Source of the DNA: Verrucomicrobiota bacterium
Lineage (GTDB): Bacteria; Verrucomicrobiota; Verrucomicrobiia; Limisphaerales; JADLHS01
Assembly (NCBI GenBank): GCA_029573725.1
Contig: JAKQDQ010000028.1
Span: forward strand, 248,001-312,000
Direction of reading: 5' to 3'
Length of the DNA stretch: 64,000 nucleotides
This document shows, piece by piece, positions 23,952 to 35,863 of this stretch. The position numbers were made by a program, and so were the translations under genes. The notes beneath the pieces are model-generated. The model worked only from the letters and a program-made list of their open reading frames with translations. It had not been told where the DNA came from and searched no databases. Position 1 is the first letter of the stretch. Each line of letters opens with the position of its first letter.

Positions 23952-24041
23952 GGAAGGGTGGCTGAGTGGTTAAAGGCATCTGACTCGAAATCAGAAGTAG
24001 GGGCAACTCTACCGTGGGTTCGAATCCCACCCCTTCCGCCA
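23952..24041 (+). tRNA. tRNA-Ser (anticodon CGA)
   Basis: A 90-nt class II tRNA with encoded CCA. The acceptor arms GGAAGGG and CCCTTCC pair perfectly with discriminator G. The anticodon stem TCTGA/TCAGA encloses CTCGAAA, so the anticodon is CGA (23986-23988), reading UCG. A long variable arm (AGTAGGGGCAACTCTACC) is present, and the T-loop is GTTCGAATC. These features identify serine. Confidence 0.97.
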
Positions 24042-24214
24042 GTGCGTCGTCCCCACTGGTGATCGGCGGCGGCCCGGCGCTGTGTTTTTGCTTGTTCCCA
24101 ACCGGGAATTCGCGGCACACTGCCGCCGCGTTGCCGGTGGATGCCCCGGCAACGATTTATTTACGGCACCGGAATACCGACGATTTGACCTCCGGGGTCT
24201 TCCACCAACAATTG

Positions 24215-26047
24215 ATGAAAACTGCAGATCAAAATCTCCCGCAGGATGCCACCATCCGGCACTGGGTCCGCGACATGGCGGCCCTGTGTCAGCCCGACCA
24301 GATCCATTGGTGTGACGGTTCGGAAGCCGAAGACCAGCAGATGCGCCGCCTGATCATTGCCTCCGGCGCCGGCGTGCAGCTCAACGAAAACCTGCGCCCC
24401 AACTCCATCCTGGTGCGCAGCGACCCGCGCGATGTCGCCCGCGTCGAACAGCGCACCTTCATCTGTTCACAGTCCCCGAAGGACGCCGGGCCCACCAACA
24501 ACTGGGAAGCCCCTGCCGCCATGAAGGCGCGGTTGAAGGCCCTTTTCAACGGCTGCATGAAGGGCCGGACCCTTTATGTCATTCCTTTCAGCATGGGGCC
24601 CATCGGCTCCCCCATCGCGCAATACGGCATCGAACTTTCGGACAGCCCGTACGTCGTCGCCAACATGCGGATCATGACCCGCATGGGAACCGCGGTGTAC
24701 CGGGAAATCGAGCGCGTCGGACAGTTCGTCAAATGCCTCCATTCGGTGGGCGTGCCGTTGGCGCCCGGAGCGAAGGACGTGCCCTGGCCCTGCAATCCCG
24801 AGCAGACGTACATCAGCCACTTCCCCGAAGAACGGCTCATCATGAGTTTCGGTTCCGGCTACGGTGGCAACGCCTTGCTGGGCAAGAAATGCTTTGCGCT
24901 GCGTATCGCCTCGGCCATGGCGCGGGACGAGGGCTGGATGGCCGAACACATGTTGATCCTCGGCGTCAAGGATCCCTCCGGCAACAAGACCTACGTGACC
25001 GCGGCGTTTCCCAGCGCGTGCGGCAAAACCAATTTCGCCATGCTCGTGCCGCCGCCGCACCTCAAACAGCAGGGGTGGGAAGTCACCTGCGTGGGCGACG
25101 ACATTGCCTGGATCAAGCCCGGCCCCGACGGCCATTTCCGCGCCATTAATCCGGAGGCCGGCTTCTTCGGAGTCGCGCCCGGCACGTCCTACACCAGCAA
25201 TCCCATGGCCATGGATTCCATCAAGCGCGACACGATTTTTACCAACGTGGCGCTGACGGACGAGGGCGATGTCTGGTGGGAGGGGATGACGCCGGCCCCT
25301 CCGGCGCATTTGATTGACTGGAAAGGCCGCGACTGGACCCCGGCCTCCCGGGACGCTGATGGCAAGCCCGTGTTGTCGAGCCACCCGAACAGCCGGTTCA
25401 CCGCTCCCGCCCGGAATTGTCCCATCATTGACCCGGATTGGGAAAATCCTGAAGGCGTGCAGGTCAGTGCCATCATTTTTGGCGGCCGCCGGGCCACCAC
25501 CATGCCGCTGATCTTTCAAGCGTTCAACTGGGTGCATGGCGTCTATCTGGGCGCCACTGTCGGCTCGGAAATGACCGCCGCCGCCGCCGGCACGATCGGT
25601 CAGGTCCGGCGCGATCCCATGGCCATGCTGCCGTTCTGCGGTTACAACATGGGCGATTACTTTTCCCACTGGCTCGAAATGCGGCGCCACGTCAAGCACC
25701 TGCCCCGCATGTTCCACGTCAATTGGTTCCGAAAAAACGCGGAGGGAAAATTCCTCTGGCCGGGCTACGGGGAAAACATGCGGGTGCTCAAATGGGTCGT
25801 GCAACGCTGCCGCCTCGGCGCCCGCGCGATCGAGACCGCCATTGGCTGGGTGCCCGAATACCAGGACCTGGACATGCACGGGCTGGAACAGGAAATCACC
25901 GCGGAGAAATTCGCCGCGGTGCAAAATATTGACCGTGCGGAATGGCATCGGGAACTGGTGATGCAGGACGAGTTGTTCTTCAAGCTGTACTCGCAACTGC
26001 CCAAGGAACTGGTCTTCCAGCGGGAATTGCTGGTCTCCCGTTTGTGA
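24215..26047 (+). CDS. pckG: Phosphoenolpyruvate carboxykinase (GTP)
   Basis: A 610-residue protein converting oxaloacetate and GTP to PEP, the entry step of gluconeogenesis. The P-loop FPSACGKTN is at residues 265-273, with the hyper-reactive Cys269 and Lys271 of the GTP-dependent family. VGDDIAWI supplies a metal-binding aspartate pair, and IIFGGRR and the [11 protein letters not shown] block are family hallmarks. The ATG at 24215 gives the family N-terminus; the frame stays open back into the tRNA gene, so earlier starts are rejected. It lies 173 bases after tRNA-Ser. Confidence 0.95.
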
Positions 26048-26127: not shown

Positions 26128-27123
26128 ATGAAGAAAATTAAGATTGCCCAGTTTGGGCTGGGCCCCATCGGCATTGAAACACTGAAACTGGCCGCCACCA
26201 AGCCCTGGATTGAGATCGTGGGCGGCATTGACATTGACCCGGCCAAAGTCGGCAAACCGCTCGCCCGGCTGGCCGGCGAGCCCCGTGTCGGTCGCGCCCG
26301 GGTCCATCGGTCGCTGGAGGCCCTGCTGGCAACCGCGCAACCCGAGGTGATTTTTCACACCGCCGTCTCCAGGGTGAAACTGGCGTATCCTCAAATCGAA
26401 CCGATGCTGCAACGGGGGATCAGCGTAATTTCCTCGTGCGAAGAGCTGCTCTATCCCGCCCTGCGCGAGCCCCGGCTTGCGGCCCGGCTCGATGCCCGCG
26501 CCAAGGCCGCGGGCGCCCGCCTGCTGGGCACCGGCGTCAATCCCGGCTTCGTGATGGATGTGCTGCCGGTTTGCCTCACCGGCGTCTGCCGCGAGGTTCA
26601 GGCCGTCCATGTCCAGCGCGTCGTGAATGCCTCCACCCGGCGCGGGCCCTTGCAGCGCAAAATTGGCAGCGGTTGGACGCCTGCCGAATTTGAGCGCCGC
26701 TTCCAGCGCGGTCAGGCCGGGCACGCCGGACTCAAGGAATCGGCGGCCCTGATTGCCCATGCACTCGGCTGGAAACTCGACGCCCTGGAGGAGACCGGCA
26801 AGGCCATGGTCGCCCTGGCGGACATCAAGACTCCGCACGTCACCGTCCAGCGCGGCCAATGTTGCGGCCTGCACCAGCTCGCCGTCGGGCGGATGCGGGG
26901 CGCGGTCAAAATCACCCTCGACATCAAGATGTACCTCGACGCGCCCAACCCGCACGACGCCGTGGAAATCGTCGGTGATCCGGGTCTGAAAAACATCGTC
27001 ACCACGGGTGTCGCCGGCGACGGCGCCACCGTGGCTTCGCTCGTCCACGCGGCGCCGCGGCTGCTCAAGGCCCCGCCCGGCCTCGTGTTGATGACCGATC
27101 TGGGGGTGCCCAGCTTTGCCTGA
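26128..27123 (+). CDS. DapB-like NAD(P)-dependent dehydrogenase (2,4-diaminopentanoate dehydrogenase-like)
   Basis: A 331-residue protein. The N-terminal Rossmann fold (KIAQFGLGPIGIETL, residues 5-19) matches the dihydrodipicolinate reductase N-terminal family. GTGVNPGFVMDVLP in the middle is characteristic of the 2,4-diaminopentanoate dehydrogenase-type branch of amino acid dehydrogenases. True DapB is shorter and has a different C-terminal domain, so a lysine-biosynthesis role is unlikely. The natural substrate is unknown; an amino acid-derived imine or amine is a fair guess. No partner gene of ornithine fermentation is seen nearby. Confidence 0.75.
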   Translation: MKKIKIAQFGLGPIGIETLKLAATKPWIEIVGGIDIDPAKVGKPLARLAGEPRVGRARVHRSLEALLATAQPEVIFHTAVSRVKLAYPQIEPMLQRGISVISSCEELLYPALREPRLAARLDARAKAAGARLLGTGVNPGFVMDVLPVCLTGVCREVQAVHVQRVVNASTRRGPLQRKIGSGWTPAEFERRFQRGQAGHAGLKESAALIAHALGWKLDALEETGKAMVALADIKTPHVTVQRGQCCGLHQLAVGRMRGAVKITLDIKMYLDAPNPHDAVEIVGDPGLKNIVTTGVAGDGATVASLVHAAPRLLKAPPGLVLMTDLGVPSFA

Positions 27124-28105: not shown

Positions 28106-30535
28106 TCATTTGTAGAGCAGGTACCGCTCGCGGCGCTGCTGGAAGTCCACCAAATCCATCTTCCAACTGGCGCGGATGTCATCAAGGGATTTGTCCTCCT
28201 TGACGGCGTTCAGGGTGGCGGCATGCAGCAGGAGATTCTTCGGCTTCTCCACGGGAAAATCCTTTGGATAGAGCCGATACGCGGTCTTCATGATGAGCAA
28301 TCCCACGTCCACCACGTTGCACGTTTTGCGATCGTTCAACATGATGTAAACGCCGCCACATTCCTTGCCCTGGTGAACACTGTAGGTGGGGGTGAACCGG
28401 ATCGGCACAAAGCCCACCCCCGGTAACGCGGCGCGATTCAGCTCCGCCGCCAGTTTCACGTCGTCAATATAGGGCGCGCCCACGACTTCAAACGGCGTGT
28501 CCGTCCCCCGCCCCACCGACAGCGCGCTTTCCAACAAACCGACGCCGGGATAAAGAATCGCCTGCTTCAAATTGCGCATGTTGGGCGAGGGATTGGTCCA
28601 AGGCAGATCCGTTTCATCGAAATACGTGTGGCGCGACCAGTTTTCAAGCGGGATGACGGTTAATTTGGCGTGCGTCCGGCGTTCTTCATTGTACATGAGC
28701 GCCAGTTCGCCCATGGTCATGGCGTAGCGCAATGGCGTGGGATGGAAACCGACAAAACTCGTCGGTTCAGTGAGCACCGGACCGTCAATCGTCACCCCGT
28801 CAATCGGGTTGACCCGGTCCAGCACGAAGTATTCGATGCCGGCCTCGGCGGCGGCCTCCATGCCCAGCCCCATGGTGGAGGTGTAGGTATAGAACCGGCA
28901 GCCCACGTCCTGAATGTCGAACACCAGCGCGTCGAGGCCCTGCAGTTGTTCCGGAGCGGGTTTGCGGCGCTGTCCATACAGGCTGTATATCGGCAGGCCG
29001 GTTTTGGCGTCGGTGCCGTCGCCTACCTGCTCGTCGGCCACGCCGCGGATGCCGTGTTCCGGACTGAACAGGGCGACCAGCCTGACGTCAGGCGCGTGGA
29101 ACAGCAGGTCAATCGTGCTACGCCGGGCGCGGTCGTGTCCGGTGTGGTTGGTGATCAATCCGATCCGCTTGCCCCGGAGCGGCGCAAAGTTGCGTTGCAC
29201 CAAAACGTCAATGCCGTCCAACACCGGCCCCTTTCGCCCTGCTTGACGGAGCGGGGCGGGGCTGCTGCCGCTGCGCGCGTGATCCGAGGAGGTCCGCGGC
29301 GGCAACGCCCCGGTCACATGGGTGAAATCGAAGTCCTTGATGGCGGCGGCCGCCAGGGTGCCCAGCTGGCGGCGCAACGCCAACACACTGCCCTGCTCGG
29401 TGGGATGATTCCGGTTCGACAAAAAAATGACGAAGGACTTGGAAAAGGGGTCAATCCAGAGGGAGGTCCCCGTCCAGCCGGTGTGGCCATAAGATCCGAG
29501 GGGGAAGATGTCTCCGCGCGGTCCGCTGAAACCGGTGTCAATGTCCCAGCCGATGCCGCGCCGGCCATTCACATTGGGCGGCGTCTGCACGCTGGTCATG
29601 AGTTGGACCGTTTCCGGCCGGAAAATCCGCACGCCATCGAGCTCGCCGCCATTGAGCAGCATTTGCGCATAGCGCGCCAGATCGGAGGCGGTGAAAAACA
29701 AGCCGGCATGACCCGCCACCCCGCCCATCCGGCGCGCGCGTGGATCATGCACCACTCCGCGCACCGGCACCCCGTTCTCCACTTCCGTGGGCGCAATCCG
29801 CGCCAATTTGGACGGGGGCGGATTGAAGCCCGTGTCCTTCATGCCGAGCGGCCCATATACTTCACGTTGCAAGAACTGATCCAGCGGCTGGCCGGCCACG
29901 CGATGCACAATCTCGCCCACCAAGATTGGCCCGGTGTCGCTGTACACAATTTTCTCACCCGGCCGGCTGGCCAGTTTCTCGGCGCAGGCCAGTTTGATGG
30001 CGGCGGCGGTGCCGTTCCAGTCCGGCTTCAAACTGATGTCGGGACGCAACCCCGAAGTGTGGGTCATCAACTGGCGCAGGGTCACCTCCTCCTTGCCGCC
30101 GCCGGTGAAGTCGGGCAAATATTTCGCCACGCGATCCTCCAGGCTCAACTGGCCGCGTTCCACCAGCAACATGAGCGCCGGGGTGCAGGCCACCACCTTC
30201 GTCAGGCTGGCGGCATCGAAGAGGGTATCCTCGGTCATCGGCTCAACCGCCGGCACGACCGCTCGCTGGCCGTAGGCCCGGTGATACGTTGCGCCATCAT
30301 GCTGCAGCCACAGCACCCCGCCCGGACATTTCCGGTCCGCAATGGCGGCGTTAATGGCCTGATCCATCTCCGCCAATTTCTCTGGGCGGAAGCTGGCGCC
30401 CGGCTGGGCCAGGCTGTTGAGTCCGAAGGTCAGCGCCAGCAATCCGGCGGCGCCGGCCCTGGACCAGACGGAATACGTGCCGCGACCGGCGGGAGTTATA
30501 GTCGATGACATCAGGGTGGAGGGGTCTTGGTTCAT
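28106..30535 (-). CDS. Fusion: class C beta-lactamase-fold serine hydrolase + NamZ-type exo-beta-N-acetylmuramidase (GH171, DUF1343)
   Basis: An 809-residue exported protein. After a hydrophobic leader (residues ~26-44), residues ~50-405 form a penicillin-binding-protein/beta-lactamase fold with Ser110 and Lys113 (AASLTK), Tyr198 (VYSDTG) and HTG at 351-353. A Pro/Ser/Arg-rich linker (410-437) leads to a DUF1343/NamZ domain (438-809). That domain has LITNHTG, FSPEHGIRG (Glu493-His494), VFDIQDVGCRFYTY and GRGTDTPFEVVGAP. NamZ releases N-acetylmuramic acid from peptidoglycan ends. The first domain may act on peptide or ester bonds of muropeptides. The gene overlaps marC by ATGA. Confidence 0.9.
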   Translation of the reverse strand: MNQDPSTLMSSTITPAGRGTYSVWSRAGAAGLLALTFGLNSLAQPGASFRPEKLAEMDQAINAAIADRKCPGGVLWLQHDGATYHRAYGQRAVVPAVEPMTEDTLFDAASLTKVVACTPALMLLVERGQLSLEDRVAKYLPDFTGGGKEEVTLRQLMTHTSGLRPDISLKPDWNGTAAAIKLACAEKLASRPGEKIVYSDTGPILVGEIVHRVAGQPLDQFLQREVYGPLGMKDTGFNPPPSKLARIAPTEVENGVPVRGVVHDPRARRMGGVAGHAGLFFTASDLARYAQMLLNGGELDGVRIFRPETVQLMTSVQTPPNVNGRRGIGWDIDTGFSGPRGDIFPLGSYGHTGWTGTSLWIDPFSKSFVIFLSNRNHPTEQGSVLALRRQLGTLAAAAIKDFDFTHVTGALPPRTSSDHARSGSSPAPLRQAGRKGPVLDGIDVLVQRNFAPLRGKRIGLITNHTGHDRARRSTIDLLFHAPDVRLVALFSPEHGIRGVADEQVGDGTDAKTGLPIYSLYGQRRKPAPEQLQGLDALVFDIQDVGCRFYTYTSTMGLGMEAAAEAGIEYFVLDRVNPIDGVTIDGPVLTEPTSFVGFHPTPLRYAMTMGELALMYNEERRTHAKLTVIPLENWSRHTYFDETDLPWTNPSPNMRNLKQAILYPGVGLLESALSVGRGTDTPFEVVGAPYIDDVKLAAELNRAALPGVGFVPIRFTPTYSVHQGKECGGVYIMLNDRKTCNVVDVGLLIMKTAYRLYPKDFPVEKPKNLLLHAATLNAVKEDKSLDDIRASWKMDLVDFQQRRERYLLYK

Positions 30536-31179
30536 GATTTAATCCATTCGTTGCGCACGGCGGTGATCCCGTTGATCATGAACTGAATGGCCACGGTGGC
30601 CAGCAGCAGGCCCATGATCCGCGTCGTGACTTTCATGGCGATGGGATTGAGCCAGGCGGCGCCGCGCGCCGAGAGGCGCAAAATCAGATAACTGAGGCAC
30701 GCCACCAGCAAAATGCAGGCGTACAACGCCACATGCTGGGCCACGTTGATCGCCCGGGATTGCATGACAATGGCCGTGGAAATGGCCCCCGGGCCGGCCA
30801 GCATGGGCACCGCCAGCGGCGTGATGGCGATGTCGGCCTTTTCCGAGCCGGCCAGGGTTTCCTCGGTGGTTTCGACCACCCGGGAGCGTTGCGCCTGCAA
30901 CATGTCCAGCGCCACGATGAACAACACGATGCTGGCGGCGATCTGGAACGCCGGCATGGTGATTCCGAGGAAGTGAAAAATAACTTTCCCGGCCACGGCA
31001 AAGACCAACAGGATCGTTGCCATCACAACGCAAGCCAGGCGCGCCATCCGGATGCGTTGTTCCGGGGTGTCCCGCGGTGTCATGGCGATGAAAGCCGGCA
31101 CCGTGGCCAGCGGATCCACAATCACGAACAGCGAACCAAAGGTCAGCAGCGTGTATTCGAGCAGCGCGTGAAGATTCAT
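30532..31179 (-). CDS. MarC family integral membrane protein
   Basis: A 215-residue membrane protein with about six hydrophobic helices. The family pattern is visible in FVIVDPLATVPAFIAMT near the N-terminus and ITPLAVPMLAGPGAIST in the middle. MarC proteins are of unproven function; the old link to multiple antibiotic resistance in E. coli is not supported. It overlaps the genes on both sides by 4 bases (ATGA), so it is translationally coupled to the ATP-grasp-like gene upstream and the NamZ fusion downstream. Confidence 0.9.
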   Translation of the reverse strand: MNLHALLEYTLLTFGSLFVIVDPLATVPAFIAMTPRDTPEQRIRMARLACVVMATILLVFAVAGKVIFHFLGITMPAFQIAASIVLFIVALDMLQAQRSRVVETTEETLAGSEKADIAITPLAVPMLAGPGAISTAIVMQSRAINVAQHVALYACILLVACLSYLILRLSARGAAWLNPIAMKVTTRIMGLLLATVAIQFMINGITAVRNEWIKS

Positions 31180-32546
31180 GCCGAACAGGGCGCCAGCACG
31201 GCGTCACTCATGCCGTGAACAATTTTTTTGTCCGCCGGAACCACCGTCGCCAGAACCCCACCCAGACGCGCCTGGGCCGAGTCCCCTTCACCGGTCACAA
31301 AATAATATGGGCACAGCCGGGCCCGCCCCCTCACCGGCACCGCTGCATTGCGTGTGAAATCATACCAGGAGGTCTCCACCAGCGCCGGCTTGTGAAACCG
31401 CTGCAGGACGCGTGGGGAGCGTGAAAATTCCGTCAACGCCGCATCCACCGCCCTGGCCCAGGCCTCATGCGACAGATCACTGCCCAGGAAAACGCCGCGC
31501 GCGCCCCAGGCGCGCTCCGAAAAACCGGAAACCTTCAAAATCAGTTCCCGCTCCTTTTGCGACAGGGATTTCAACTGCTGCCAGTCGGTGAGATTCAATT
31601 CGGGAATGGCCGCATGCGGCGGCATCGGACTGGGATCCACCAGCCAGGTGTAAGGCATCAATTTCCGCAACCGCGCAAAAAAACCATCGCCCAGCTCCAG
31701 CCGCCAGAAACCCTGCAAATGACGATTCCAGAGCAACGCAAAGAGCATTTTTTCCTCGAAAATCGGTTTGAACGGCGGCGTGACGCGGATGTCCCCCTGC
31801 TGCGCCTGCATCATGATTTGCTGGGCGGCAGGCACATTGGGCAGATCAAACAGCTCGAAAAAGCGATAGACCGCGTCTCCCGTGCGGAACGTGGAAAAAC
31901 TGGCGTCGTGCACGGCAAACCGCGGCCCCAGCTGTTCCGCCAACCATTGCATTTCGGGACGATAAGTGGCGGCTTCGTCCGAAACAATCACATGAACGTG
32001 TGGCGCATCTCCGAAGAGACTTGCAAACCCGCGCAGCATCCCCTCGGCCCCGCCCAGCACCGGCGCTGCAGGCGAACCGGCATCCAGCGCGGCGTAGGTC
32101 TGGTTCAACCAGCCGGTCAACCCCATGCCACCCGGTACCGAGTCCAATTCCGTGCAACGCAACCCTTCGGCGGTGATTAACAAGTCCGGGCGGATCACCC
32201 GGGGCAGGTCCTGCTTGAAAACCGCCGCACGCTGCCAGGCGATCAGCTGGGGCGGTTTGCCCAGGTCGAGCCAGTGGGCCACCCAGGCGGGCAGCTTGCC
32301 CGCGACGCTCTTGCGGTACAACAAATTAACGGCGCGGTAAAACTGCAGCAAAATACGGCCGAGCGCCTCAATTTCCCGGGCTGTGGATTGGCCCAGGCGA
32401 AACGGCGCGGGCGCGATGCGCCATTGCATGCCCGCAAACAGACCGTGGGGGGGCATGGCAGCGCGAATCGCCCGGGCGCGCTGGGCAGTTGCATTGGGTG
32501 AATCCGCTGTCGGAGTTTGCACGTGCGTCCACCGTAGAATAACCAT
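31176..32546 (-). CDS. ATP-grasp-like protein of unknown substrate
   Basis: A 456-residue soluble protein. No named family is certain, but the layout resembles ATP-grasp ligases. RPDLLITAEGLRCTELDSVPGGMG fits a substrate/nucleotide site. ILKVSGFSERAWGARGVFLG with a Lys and Gly-rich loop follows, then VLQRFHKPALVE (strand with conserved Gln/Glu), GRARLCPYYFV and ARLGGVLATVVP in the order expected for the ATP-grasp fold. It is the first gene of a three-gene run with 4-bp overlaps. Its neighbours suggest cell-wall peptide or amino-sugar metabolism; that is inference. The start at 32546 is uncertain. Confidence 0.5.
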   Translation of the reverse strand: MVILRWTHVQTPTADSPNATAQRARAIRAAMPPHGLFAGMQWRIAPAPFRLGQSTAREIEALGRILLQFYRAVNLLYRKSVAGKLPAWVAHWLDLGKPPQLIAWQRAAVFKQDLPRVIRPDLLITAEGLRCTELDSVPGGMGLTGWLNQTYAALDAGSPAAPVLGGAEGMLRGFASLFGDAPHVHVIVSDEAATYRPEMQWLAEQLGPRFAVHDASFSTFRTGDAVYRFFELFDLPNVPAAQQIMMQAQQGDIRVTPPFKPIFEEKMLFALLWNRHLQGFWRLELGDGFFARLRKLMPYTWLVDPSPMPPHAAIPELNLTDWQQLKSLSQKERELILKVSGFSERAWGARGVFLGSDLSHEAWARAVDAALTEFSRSPRVLQRFHKPALVETSWYDFTRNAAVPVRGRARLCPYYFVTGEGDSAQARLGGVLATVVPADKKIVHGMSDAVLAPCSA

Positions 32547-33633: not shown

Positions 33634-34872
33634 TCAGCGTTGGAGTTCCCGGGCGACGCGTTCCGCTTCGCGCAACACGCGCAAGATATTCTGCCCGGCC
33701 ACCTTTCCCACCTCCTGGCGCGACCAACCGCGCCGCAACAGTTCGGCGATCAAATCCGGATACTTGGACACATCCTCCAAACCCTTGGGCGCGCCGCTGA
33801 ACCCATCAAAGTCCGCGCCGATCCCCACATGATCCACCCCGGCGATTTTCCGGATGTGCTCAAGATGATCCGCCACATCACTCAACGTCGCCGCTTGCGG
33901 ATCGGGATGGGTTTTCCGCCATTCGGCAATGGCCGCTTGAATGGCGCGGGGGTCGTCACCGTGCCGTTGCCGCAAGCGCTGGCGTTCCCGGGTCACGAGT
34001 TCTTCATCCAGACGATCCGCCTCGGCGAGGAAATTGGGCACAAACGCCACCATCACCACGCCGCCATTGGCCGCCGTCAGCCGCAGCACATCGTCCGGCA
34101 CATTGCGCAAATGATGACACCGGGCGCGCGCGGACGAATGGGAGAAGATCACCGGAGCGCGCGCAACCCGCAACGCGGCGCGCATCGTGGCATCGCTGAC
34201 GTGCGATAAATCCACCAGCATGCCCAGCCGGTTCATTTCACGGACCACCTCCTCGCCAAAAGCCGTCAAGCCGTGATGCACGGGGACGGCGCCCGCCGCA
34301 TCGGCCCAATCGGTGTTCTCCGTATGGGTCAGGGTCATGTAGCGTGCGCCCAGACGATACATCATGCGGAGCGTCGCCAGGGAATTGTTGATGGAATGCC
34401 CGCCTTCCATCCCGATGAGGGAGGCGATTTTGCCCCGACGGAAAATGCGTTCCACGTCCGCCGCCGTGAGGGCCAGTTCCAGCGTCTCCGGATGACGCGC
34501 ACACATCCGGTAAACCACGTCAATTTGTTCCAGGGTCGCCTGGACGGCCGCGGCCCCGCCGGGCTGTGCGGGCACGTAAACCGACCAAAATTGTGCCCCC
34601 ACCAGGCCGGCGCGCAGCCGGAGCAGGTCCGTGTGCATGGGCGGACGCAGGCCGGCCGTGCTTCGGCCCAGATCCAGCGCCGCAAAATTGTTGTGCACGC
34701 GGTCGAGGTATTCCCACGGCGTGTCATTGTGTCCGTCAATCAGCGGGGTGCGTTTGAGCAGGCGCCGGGCTTCCGCGAGGTAACGATCCGGCGGCTGCCC
34801 GGTTGCGGGCCGGATCCCCGTGATCAGGATCCCCAGGGTGGCGGTCACGATGATAAACAGCCGCTTGATCAT
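33634..34872 (-). CDS. Exported membrane dipeptidase-like enzyme, peptidase M19
   Basis: A 412-residue protein with a signal peptide (residues 1-25). The renal dipeptidase fold starts with LIDGHNDTPW (His48, Asp50 as zinc ligands). It continues with IASLIGMEGGHSINNSL (bridging Glu), LVDLSHVSDATM and PVIFSHSSARA (zinc histidines) and HVGIGADFDG near the C-terminus. It hydrolyses dipeptides, often with D-residues, so it could act on cell-wall or dietary peptides. The ATG at 34872 is chosen because it begins a clear signal peptide; the frame is open upstream without signal. It is divergent from the esterase gene at 34976. Confidence 0.92.
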   Translation of the reverse strand: MIKRLFIIVTATLGILITGIRPATGQPPDRYLAEARRLLKRTPLIDGHNDTPWEYLDRVHNNFAALDLGRSTAGLRPPMHTDLLRLRAGLVGAQFWSVYVPAQPGGAAAVQATLEQIDVVYRMCARHPETLELALTAADVERIFRRGKIASLIGMEGGHSINNSLATLRMMYRLGARYMTLTHTENTDWADAAGAVPVHHGLTAFGEEVVREMNRLGMLVDLSHVSDATMRAALRVARAPVIFSHSSARARCHHLRNVPDDVLRLTAANGGVVMVAFVPNFLAEADRLDEELVTRERQRLRQRHGDDPRAIQAAIAEWRKTHPDPQAATLSDVADHLEHIRKIAGVDHVGIGADFDGFSGAPKGLEDVSKYPDLIAELLRRGWSRQEVGKVAGQNILRVLREAERVARELQR

Positions 34873-34975
34873 GCGATTATTGTGCCAATGGATTGAGCCC
34901 CGCGCATCTCCAATTCTGCGGACACGGTAAACATGCGCATTGAACCACGTGCCGCGAACGCGTACGCTGGGCGCG

Positions 34976-35863
34976 ATGAATTTGCCACCCCGATGTCTGG
35001 CCTTGGCTGTGACGCTGCCGCTGCTGGTCCATGCCCAAAATCCGCAAAGCTTTCCGCTCTGGCCCGGGGGCGCCCCGGATGCGCGCGGCCAGGCGGACCA
35101 GGACATTCCGACGCTGACCGTTTATTTGCCGGCCCCGGAACACGCCACCGGCGCGGCCATGGTCGTATGCCCCGGTGGCGGCTACGCGGGGCTGGCCGAC
35201 CATGAGGGGAGCATTTACGCCCGCTGGTTGAATGACCTGGGGATCACCAGCTTCGTCCTGAAATACCGGCTGGGCCCGAATGGTTATCATCATCCCGCCA
35301 TGTGGCACGATGCCGCACGCGCCCTCCGCACCGTGCGGGCCCGCGCGGCGGAATGGCGGGTGGACCCGCACCGCGTCGGCATCATTGGCTCGTCGGCCGG
35401 GGGGCATCTCGCCTCCACGACAATGACGCACTGGGACGCCGGCCATCCGGACGCAACCTCCGCCATTGAACGGCAAAGCTCGCGCCCCGATCTGGCCATC
35501 TTGTGTTATCCGGTCGTTTCGATGAGCAACGAATTCACACACAAAGGTTCGCGCAACAATTTATTGGGCACGAATCCGCCCGCCGCCCTGCTGCGCGAAC
35601 TGTCCGCCGAGTTGCACGTCAACAAGGACACCCCGCCCTGTTTTCTCTGGAGCACGCTGGAGGACAAAACCGTGCCGGTGGAGAACACCCTGCTGCTGGC
35701 GCAGGCGCTGCGGCGGGCCGGTGTGCCGTTTGATCTGCATGTTTATGAACGCGGCCCGCACGGAATCGGGCTCGGGGTCCGGACCTACAGCCCCGGGGTC
35801 AAGCTCCACCCGTGGGCGGAGGATTGCAGATTCTGGTTGCGCGAACATCAATTCGTCCGCTAA
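34976..35863 (+). CDS. Secreted alpha/beta-hydrolase, probable carbohydrate esterase (BD-FAE/acetyl-xylan-esterase-like)
   Basis: A 295-residue protein with a signal peptide (residues 1-20). The oxyanion-hole motif is VVCPGGGYAGL (63-73), the nucleophile Ser140 sits in IIGSSAGGHLA, Asp/Glu in STLEDKTVPVEN and His in ERGPHGIGLG complete the triad region. PLWPGGAPDA near the N-terminus is typical of this esterase group. Such enzymes remove acetyl or feruloyl groups from plant polysaccharides, although the true substrate is unknown. The ATG at 34976 gives the best signal peptide. Confidence 0.85.
   Translation: MNLPPRCLALAVTLPLLVHAQNPQSFPLWPGGAPDARGQADQDIPTLTVYLPAPEHATGAAMVVCPGGGYAGLADHEGSIYARWLNDLGITSFVLKYRLGPNGYHHPAMWHDAARALRTVRARAAEWRVDPHRVGIIGSSAGGHLASTTMTHWDAGHPDATSAIERQSSRPDLAILCYPVVSMSNEFTHKGSRNNLLGTNPPAALLRELSAELHVNKDTPPCFLWSTLEDKTVPVENTLLLAQALRRAGVPFDLHVYERGPHGIGLGVRTYSPGVKLHPWAEDCRFWLREHQFVR

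Follow-up and report, generated by a model that had tools for sequence, protein, structure and literature searches.

The locus and its three genes

The DNA analysed here is a stretch of 64,000 nucleotides (hereafter the window; contig JAKQDQ010000028.1, positions 248,001 to 312,000) of a Verrucomicrobiota bacterium from the order Limisphaerales, and our subject is a trio of minus-strand genes in it, above all the first, which encodes a 456-residue protein whose family is labelled ATPG below. The second gene, marC, encodes a membrane protein and the third a fusion of a beta-lactamase-type and a NamZ-type domain (Bla-NamZ). We found that the ATPG family is specific to its class, has a known fold by prediction, and is repeatedly associated with MarC and, more widely across the order, with proA. 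The three genes were read from the list of open reading frames (ORFs) of the window and are as the original prediction had described them, with an ATGA at both junctions in which the ATG start of the downstream gene overlaps the TGA stop of the gene before it (Table 1). Overlaps of this 4-base kind are common in bacterial operons, and therefore the overlap alone proves little. The exact start of ATPG is uncertain, because its first 10-20 residues are poorly conserved in the alignment and residues 1-6 have a predicted local distance difference test (pLDDT) score <50 in the structural model.

Table 1. Positions of the three genes, their junctions and the candidate functional codons of ATPG, numbered within the window
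Feature	Position	Strand	Remarks
ATPG	31176..32546	-	456 codons; predicted circularly permuted ATP-grasp ligase family, outside all Pfam/NCBIfam models
RxD...ExD motif of ATPG (codons R119, D121, E133, D135)	32142..32192	-	Proposed acid-substrate/Mg2+ motif; each 1.00 of 132 rows
K266 codon of ATPG	31749..31751	-	Candidate ATP-phosphate lysine; 1.00 of 132 rows
K338 codon of ATPG, before Gly-containing loop	31533..31535	-	Candidate second ATP lysine; 1.00 of 132 rows
ATGA overlap ATPG/marC	31176..31179	-	4 bases, conserved; read from sequence
marC, NAAT-family membrane protein	30532..31179	-	215 codons; PF01914 1.7e-51; TIGR00427 173.2 bits, cut-off 99.2
ATGA overlap marC/Bla-NamZ	30532..30535	-	4 bases, absent in locus L032; read from sequence
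Bla-NamZ fusion, exported-looking	28106..30535	-	809 codons; Beta-lactamase + NamZ_N + NamZ_C (Pfam)

Predicted fold of ATPG

The window protein matched no Pfam or NCBIfam family at E 0.1, and a phmmer search of the PDB sequences was empty at E 10. An AlphaFold2 model was built from a 56-sequence alignment and has a mean pLDDT of 91 and a predicted template-modelling score of 0.91. When PDB was searched with this model by Foldseek, the top matches were human glutathione synthetase, Cp1B and the potato and soybean (homo)glutathione synthetases, with GspS lower in the list; the best E was 8.8e-15, for the human glutathione synthetase (GSS) variant 8fbz. Nearly full-length matches were also obtained with VIA, the Z values being 25.9 for YgiC (7uka) and 25.8 for homoglutathione synthetase (3kal) over 402 residues, 25.8 for Cp1B (9cjn) over 392 residues at 3.2 A, 25.4 for GspS and 24.8 for human GSS (2hgs), and the first three of these are tied. 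Below the circularly permuted group, 3k1t follows with a Z value of only 11.2 and ordinary ATP-grasp proteins do not exceed 8.8, so the model carries a whole-length fold of the GSS/GspS/YgiC type (Z 21.0-25.9 for the circularly permuted group against at most 11.2 in the other rows). ATPG is thus predicted to be a circularly permuted ATP-grasp ligase fold over its full length, and the earlier guess of an ATP-grasp-like protein stands, as the model matches ligases of this kind.

The eukaryotic-type glutathione and homoglutathione synthetases (2hgs, 8fbz, 3kal) are like ATPG in whole-length fold (Z 24.2-25.8), but their identity to it is only 10-12%. The E. coli proteins YgiC, YjfC and GspS (PF03738) reach Z 23.7-25.9 and have R, D, E and N/D in columns that align with those of ATPG. 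Cp1B/Cp2B of the fungal E-64 pathway resemble ATPG in fold (9cjn, Z 25.8) at 15% identity and belong to fungal secondary metabolism, whereas ATPG is a bacterial, class-wide gene. In the passages of PMC12568646 used here, Cp1B/Cp2B are described as a family without a detectable Pfam domain, whose nearest folds are homoglutathione synthetase, YgiC and YjfC. Neither a glutathione synthetase family of Pfam nor PF03738 (GSP_synth) was matched by the window protein or stood among the 11 families listed for 56 ATPG members, whereas the controls YgiC and GspS matched PF03738 with 546.7 and 221.4 bits. A different family, PF00816 (Histone_HNS), was hit in 33 of the 56 members (best 0.0022); two class members also hit it, at best with 0.00071 and 19.7 bits where the cut-off is 25.6, and both sets of hits were taken as chance.

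Residue conservation was calculated, to 2 decimals, over 132 family rows of a MAFFT alignment that included GspS. In this alignment R119, D121, E133 and D135 of ATPG fall opposite R316, D318, E330 and N332 of E. coli GspS, the residues of its substrate/Mg2+ motif. These columns hold R, D, E, N in GspS, YgiC and YjfC and R, D, E, E in a Streptomyces relative of ATPG; ATPG therefore has E-x-D where GspS has E-x-N. The two candidate ATP lysines could be paired with GspS by eye only, K266 with K498, where the aligner had placed another GspS residue, and K338 with K533, where it shows a gap.

Distribution of ATPG

ATPG was found in 180 of the 196 genomes of the order, and in 110 of the 111 with a completeness of at least 90% and a contamination of at most 5%. 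A profile search of a phylum sample placed it in 77 of 94 members of the class, counting the window's own genome, and in 1 of 194 genomes outside the class, where the single match is truncated; these counts are taken from a listing that begins with the class members lacking a match and leaves 190 genomes unlisted. Of the 17 class genomes without ATPG, 16 come from one genus (g109, family f64), and the other 6 of its 22 sampled genomes have the gene, a pattern read as a loss. ATPG is a core gene of this lineage, near-universal in the order and common in the class. Among the best 80 of 128 matches, the named relatives are from Limisphaerales, Pedosphaera and other Verrucomicrobiota, some record titles being doubtful or bare. 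Three loci (L055, L070, L107) are titled Methylacidimicrobium fagopyrum or Akkermansia muciniphila, yet their ATPG groups with the sequences of the order, and these labels of metagenome-assembled genomes are doubtful.

The sole plasmid match is a Streptomyces relative with 26.6% identity, which sits between an arginine deiminase family gene and a valine--tRNA ligase gene; a plasmid search with this relative as the query returned only itself. A radical SAM gene is also nearby (L170:9222-15781), and the region resembles a natural-product cluster. No paper on the ATPG family was recognised among the results listed from an open-licence library, which says nothing about print at large.

Association with marC and proA

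To describe the gene neighbourhood, ORFs around 110 ATPG loci were clustered, and the recurrent same-strand neighbours were ProA (a cluster named by NCBIfam) in front and MarC behind. Raw counts repeat some genomes, and removal of duplicates at 97% identity left 100 distinct loci. Counts by genome refer to 52 genomes that are at least 90% complete and have a placed ATPG, i.e. a 57-genome set minus G014, G032, G040, G052 and G071. Directly behind ATPG, marC is present in 24 of the 35 MarC-bearing genomes of the 52, the aligned parts being 12 to 104 bases apart, and in 39 of 96 distinct loci. For the overlap, 39 loci qualified and 2 were dropped as no in-frame start was found. In 29 of the remaining 37 distinct loci, marC has a start codon placed for an overlap of exactly 4 bases with the end of the ligase gene, as in the window, and in 20 of them all this start is also the one closest to the alignment. 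The MarC proteins near ATPG have 53-79% identity to that of the window. MarC is a real partner of ATPG across the order. The original prediction had taken the two overlaps to imply translational coupling and joint function of the whole trio; the part that concerns ATPG and marC is borne out in that their linkage recurs across the order, and the two genes may well be coupled in translation, while the extension to all three genes together is not supported.

As a protein, the window's MarC scores over the cut-offs of PF01914 and TIGR00427, in agreement with the earlier assignment, and it shares these models with the MarC/SnatA NAAT family (TC 2.A.95) but falls below the cut-offs of the equivalog models for YchE, MarC and YhgN. 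According to the sections of PMC12003319 consulted, SnatA moves glycine and a mutant E. coli MarC moves threonine, and the same sections give the physiological function of MarC and YchE as not established. The window's genome also has a second, more distant MarC (G000:C127:211863-212474, 104.6 bits).

The commonest gene in front of ATPG across the order is proA, which was found there on the same strand in 33 of the 52 genomes within 300 bases, in 36 within 600 and in 38 within 900, and in 45 of 87 distinct loci. The 83 distinct loci with enough flank on either side divide into 16 with both neighbours, 28 with proA only, 16 with marC only and 23 with neither. Further upstream, an N-acetylglutamate synthase gene (named by NCBIfam from one representative) occurs in 6 of the 23 distinct loci that have ProA and an upstream flank of at least 3 kb. 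In the window's genome there is no proA in front of ATPG, and because of this the link was invisible to the earlier reader. On a quick tree, the state of proA changes 21 times against a mean of 29.0 in shuffles (0 of 100 as low), and that of marC 24 times against 29.2 (1 of 100 as low). In this tree the window protein has a long branch and does not group with the other members of its genus, and the tree was used for the change counts only. Both links are kept more than expected by chance, yet they are often lost. The window locus may accordingly be viewed as a version of an order-wide proA - ATPG - marC block, without proA in front and with Bla-NamZ added behind.

The Bla-NamZ fusion

Pfam profiles confirm the fusion encoded by the third gene, with a serine beta-lactamase-fold domain at residues 58-388 (motifs SLTK 110, YSD 198 and HTG 351), NamZ_N at 458-656 and NamZ_C at 660-808. 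A hydrophobic N-terminal stretch was seen by reading the sequence (no signal-peptide program). The architecture, a NamZ exo-muramidase (PF07075/PF20732) joined to a DD-peptidase or beta-lactamase-fold domain, is a known one, and what is unusual is its place behind marC. In the part of PMC2605481 drawn on here, the pairing is already listed, in 2008, as DDPept-DUF1343 (DUF1343 being PF07075).

Behind marC the fusion was found in three loci only, namely the window, L003/L174 of the same genus (G165) and L032. The congener G187 has proA-ATPG-marC intact and no Bla-NamZ in the ~6.7 kb past marC. Among the 61 distinct loci with room, a set that excludes the window locus (L001) and L003 with their flanks of 1.5 kb only, Bla-NamZ lies within 2.5 kb in one, L032. 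There the fitting ATG of the fusion is ~30 bases past the marC stop, and thus the second overlap is not kept. The three-gene order is therefore not conserved in the relatives surveyed. Two further NamZ genes are present elsewhere in the window's genome, and we read Bla-NamZ as a separate, locally attached wall-turnover enzyme. An M19 membrane dipeptidase gene lies at 33634-35106 (-) of the window, separated from ATPG by an opposite-strand ORF; an M19 relative is also found upstream in L032, and such a gene may accompany the locus where it carries Bla-NamZ.

Other genes in the window

On the plus strand, 26128-27123 encodes a protein with the C-terminal domain of 2,4-diaminopentanoate dehydrogenase (PF19328, 2.5e-34). 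The longest ORF at 24014-26047 (+), which resembles phosphoenolpyruvate carboxykinase (by eye, no profile), has its first codons within a tRNA-Ser (CGA) at 23952-24041, and its true start is probably downstream.

Discussion

Enzymes of the glutathione-synthetase fold group join a carboxylate to an amine via an acyl phosphate. Carboxylate-amine joining by this route is also what the passages of PMC12568646 used here give for Cp1B. Judged by its predicted fold, ATPG would most likely be an active ATP-dependent carboxylate-amine (amide or peptide) ligase. In such a reaction R119 and D121 would hold a substrate whose carboxylate is phosphorylated by ATP, E133/D135 would bind Mg2+ and K266/K338 the nucleotide, and the resulting acyl phosphate would be attacked by an amine. 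The linkage to ProA suggests that the acid may be glutamate or a compound derived from it, and MarC could import the small amino acid to be joined or move the product. Gamma-glutamyl phosphate is the substrate of ProA, and together with the N-acetylglutamate synthase gene upstream this makes glutamate chemistry the best lead. Overall, we consider it reasonably probable that ATPG is a carboxylate-amine ligase specific to the class and linked to glutamate/proline metabolism, and that MarC transports either a small amino acid or what the ligase makes.

Several observations weigh against this reading. ATPG is kept without any MarC match in 17 of the 52 genomes, which means that it does not need MarC, and 14 of the 52 have no proA within 900 bases in front. 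Among 29 class members outside the order (~1.5 kb flanks in most) neither proA nor marC was found, and the recurrent neighbour is instead ruvA (7 of 20 loci), with sucC/sucD-, tig- and clp-like genes, named by eye, in fewer loci; ATPG is therefore not dependent on either partner. The window's genome has its own ProB over the cut-off, so ATPG is not needed to fill a gap in proline synthesis, and a role of ATPG as the ProB replacement in this genome was ruled out on the same ground. At the sequence level, the ATPG profile gave only chance-level matches against PDB sequences (best E 1.2), and hhalign did not recover GspS/YgiC/YjfC with significance (E 0.08, probability 0.7%), so sequence alone could not have revealed the relation. 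Lastly, a YkuD protein similar to ElsL, a carboxypeptidase of wall recycling, occurs near ATPG in 14 of the 110 loci (loci not de-duplicated), mostly in the upstream flank at a median of about 3.7 kb; the one representative scanned is below the ElsL cut-off, and this neighbour is a weak hint of a wall context. An example is L059:2011-2637, with 13 other loci.

A more specific form of the glutamate reading is that ATPG makes an undescribed, class-wide amide or gamma-glutamyl metabolite (a protectant, osmolyte or thiol) in a lineage mostly without the glutathione genes searched, where ProA would share the glutamate branch point and MarC would move the amine or the product. As so precise a proposal it is speculative, and we hold it to be unlikely.

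The likeness to YgiC, which has the highest VIA Z and is annotated as a peptide--spermidine ligase, together with the shared RxD...ExN/D columns, could indicate that ATPG joins peptides or amino acids to polyamines as YgiC, YjfC or GspS would. We judge this quite unlikely, since ATPG lacks the PF03738 match that the controls give so clearly, the Z of YgiC is tied with those of Cp1B and homoglutathione synthetase, and no polyamine gene was recognised among the representatives viewed (12 of 48 neighbour clusters, plus 10 more, a partial look).

ATPG might also replace GshB in this lineage, as a synthetase of glutathione or of an analogous thiol. Its best Foldseek matches are the eukaryotic-type synthetases, GshB is over the cut-off in 0 of the 57 genomes (3 weaker matches, the best with 211 bits against a cut-off of 299), and relatives of MarC move glycine, the amine used by glutathione synthetase. 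The absence of a glutathione synthetase Pfam match speaks against it, and most genomes with ATPG have neither of the glutamate-cysteine ligase families searched: GCS2 is in 4 of the 57, Glu_cys_ligase in 0 of the 57, and neither is in the window's genome, other GshA types not being searched. Glutathione itself is a poor fit, and a thiol synthetase in general seems to us improbable. We find it just as improbable that the neighbourhood is an inherited ancestral order without functional meaning and that ATPG serves an unrelated core process. The change of neighbours outside the order and the 21-24 changes of the links on the tree would agree with such an inheritance, but the pair is kept in most of the MarC-bearing genomes, and most of the loci tested allow the 4-base overlap, at a MarC identity of 53-79% to that of the window.

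The original prediction had combined the three genes into one wall pathway, in which Bla-NamZ releases muropeptide pieces, MarC imports them and ATPG ligates them; the NamZ-type third gene, the overlaps of the trio in the window and the YkuD/ElsL-like cluster agree with it, but with Bla-NamZ so local, not found behind marC in G187 and accompanied by NamZ genes elsewhere in the genome, and with ATPG itself near-universal in the order, we reject wall recycling as the shared function of the trio and rate such an operon very improbable.

The glutamate-linked ligase reading concerns a gene that is near-universal in its order and common in its class, and that encodes a ligase fold outside every Pfam and NCBIfam model. 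As no such model covers ATPG, its members are probably annotated as hypothetical proteins, and the one annotated relative, from Streptomyces, does carry this annotation. The fold makes the type of reaction directly testable, and the recurrent overlap with marC offers genetic access to a family of transporters for which the physiological substrate is unsettled. If true, the amide or gamma-glutamyl metabolite proposal would give MarC a concrete biochemical context.

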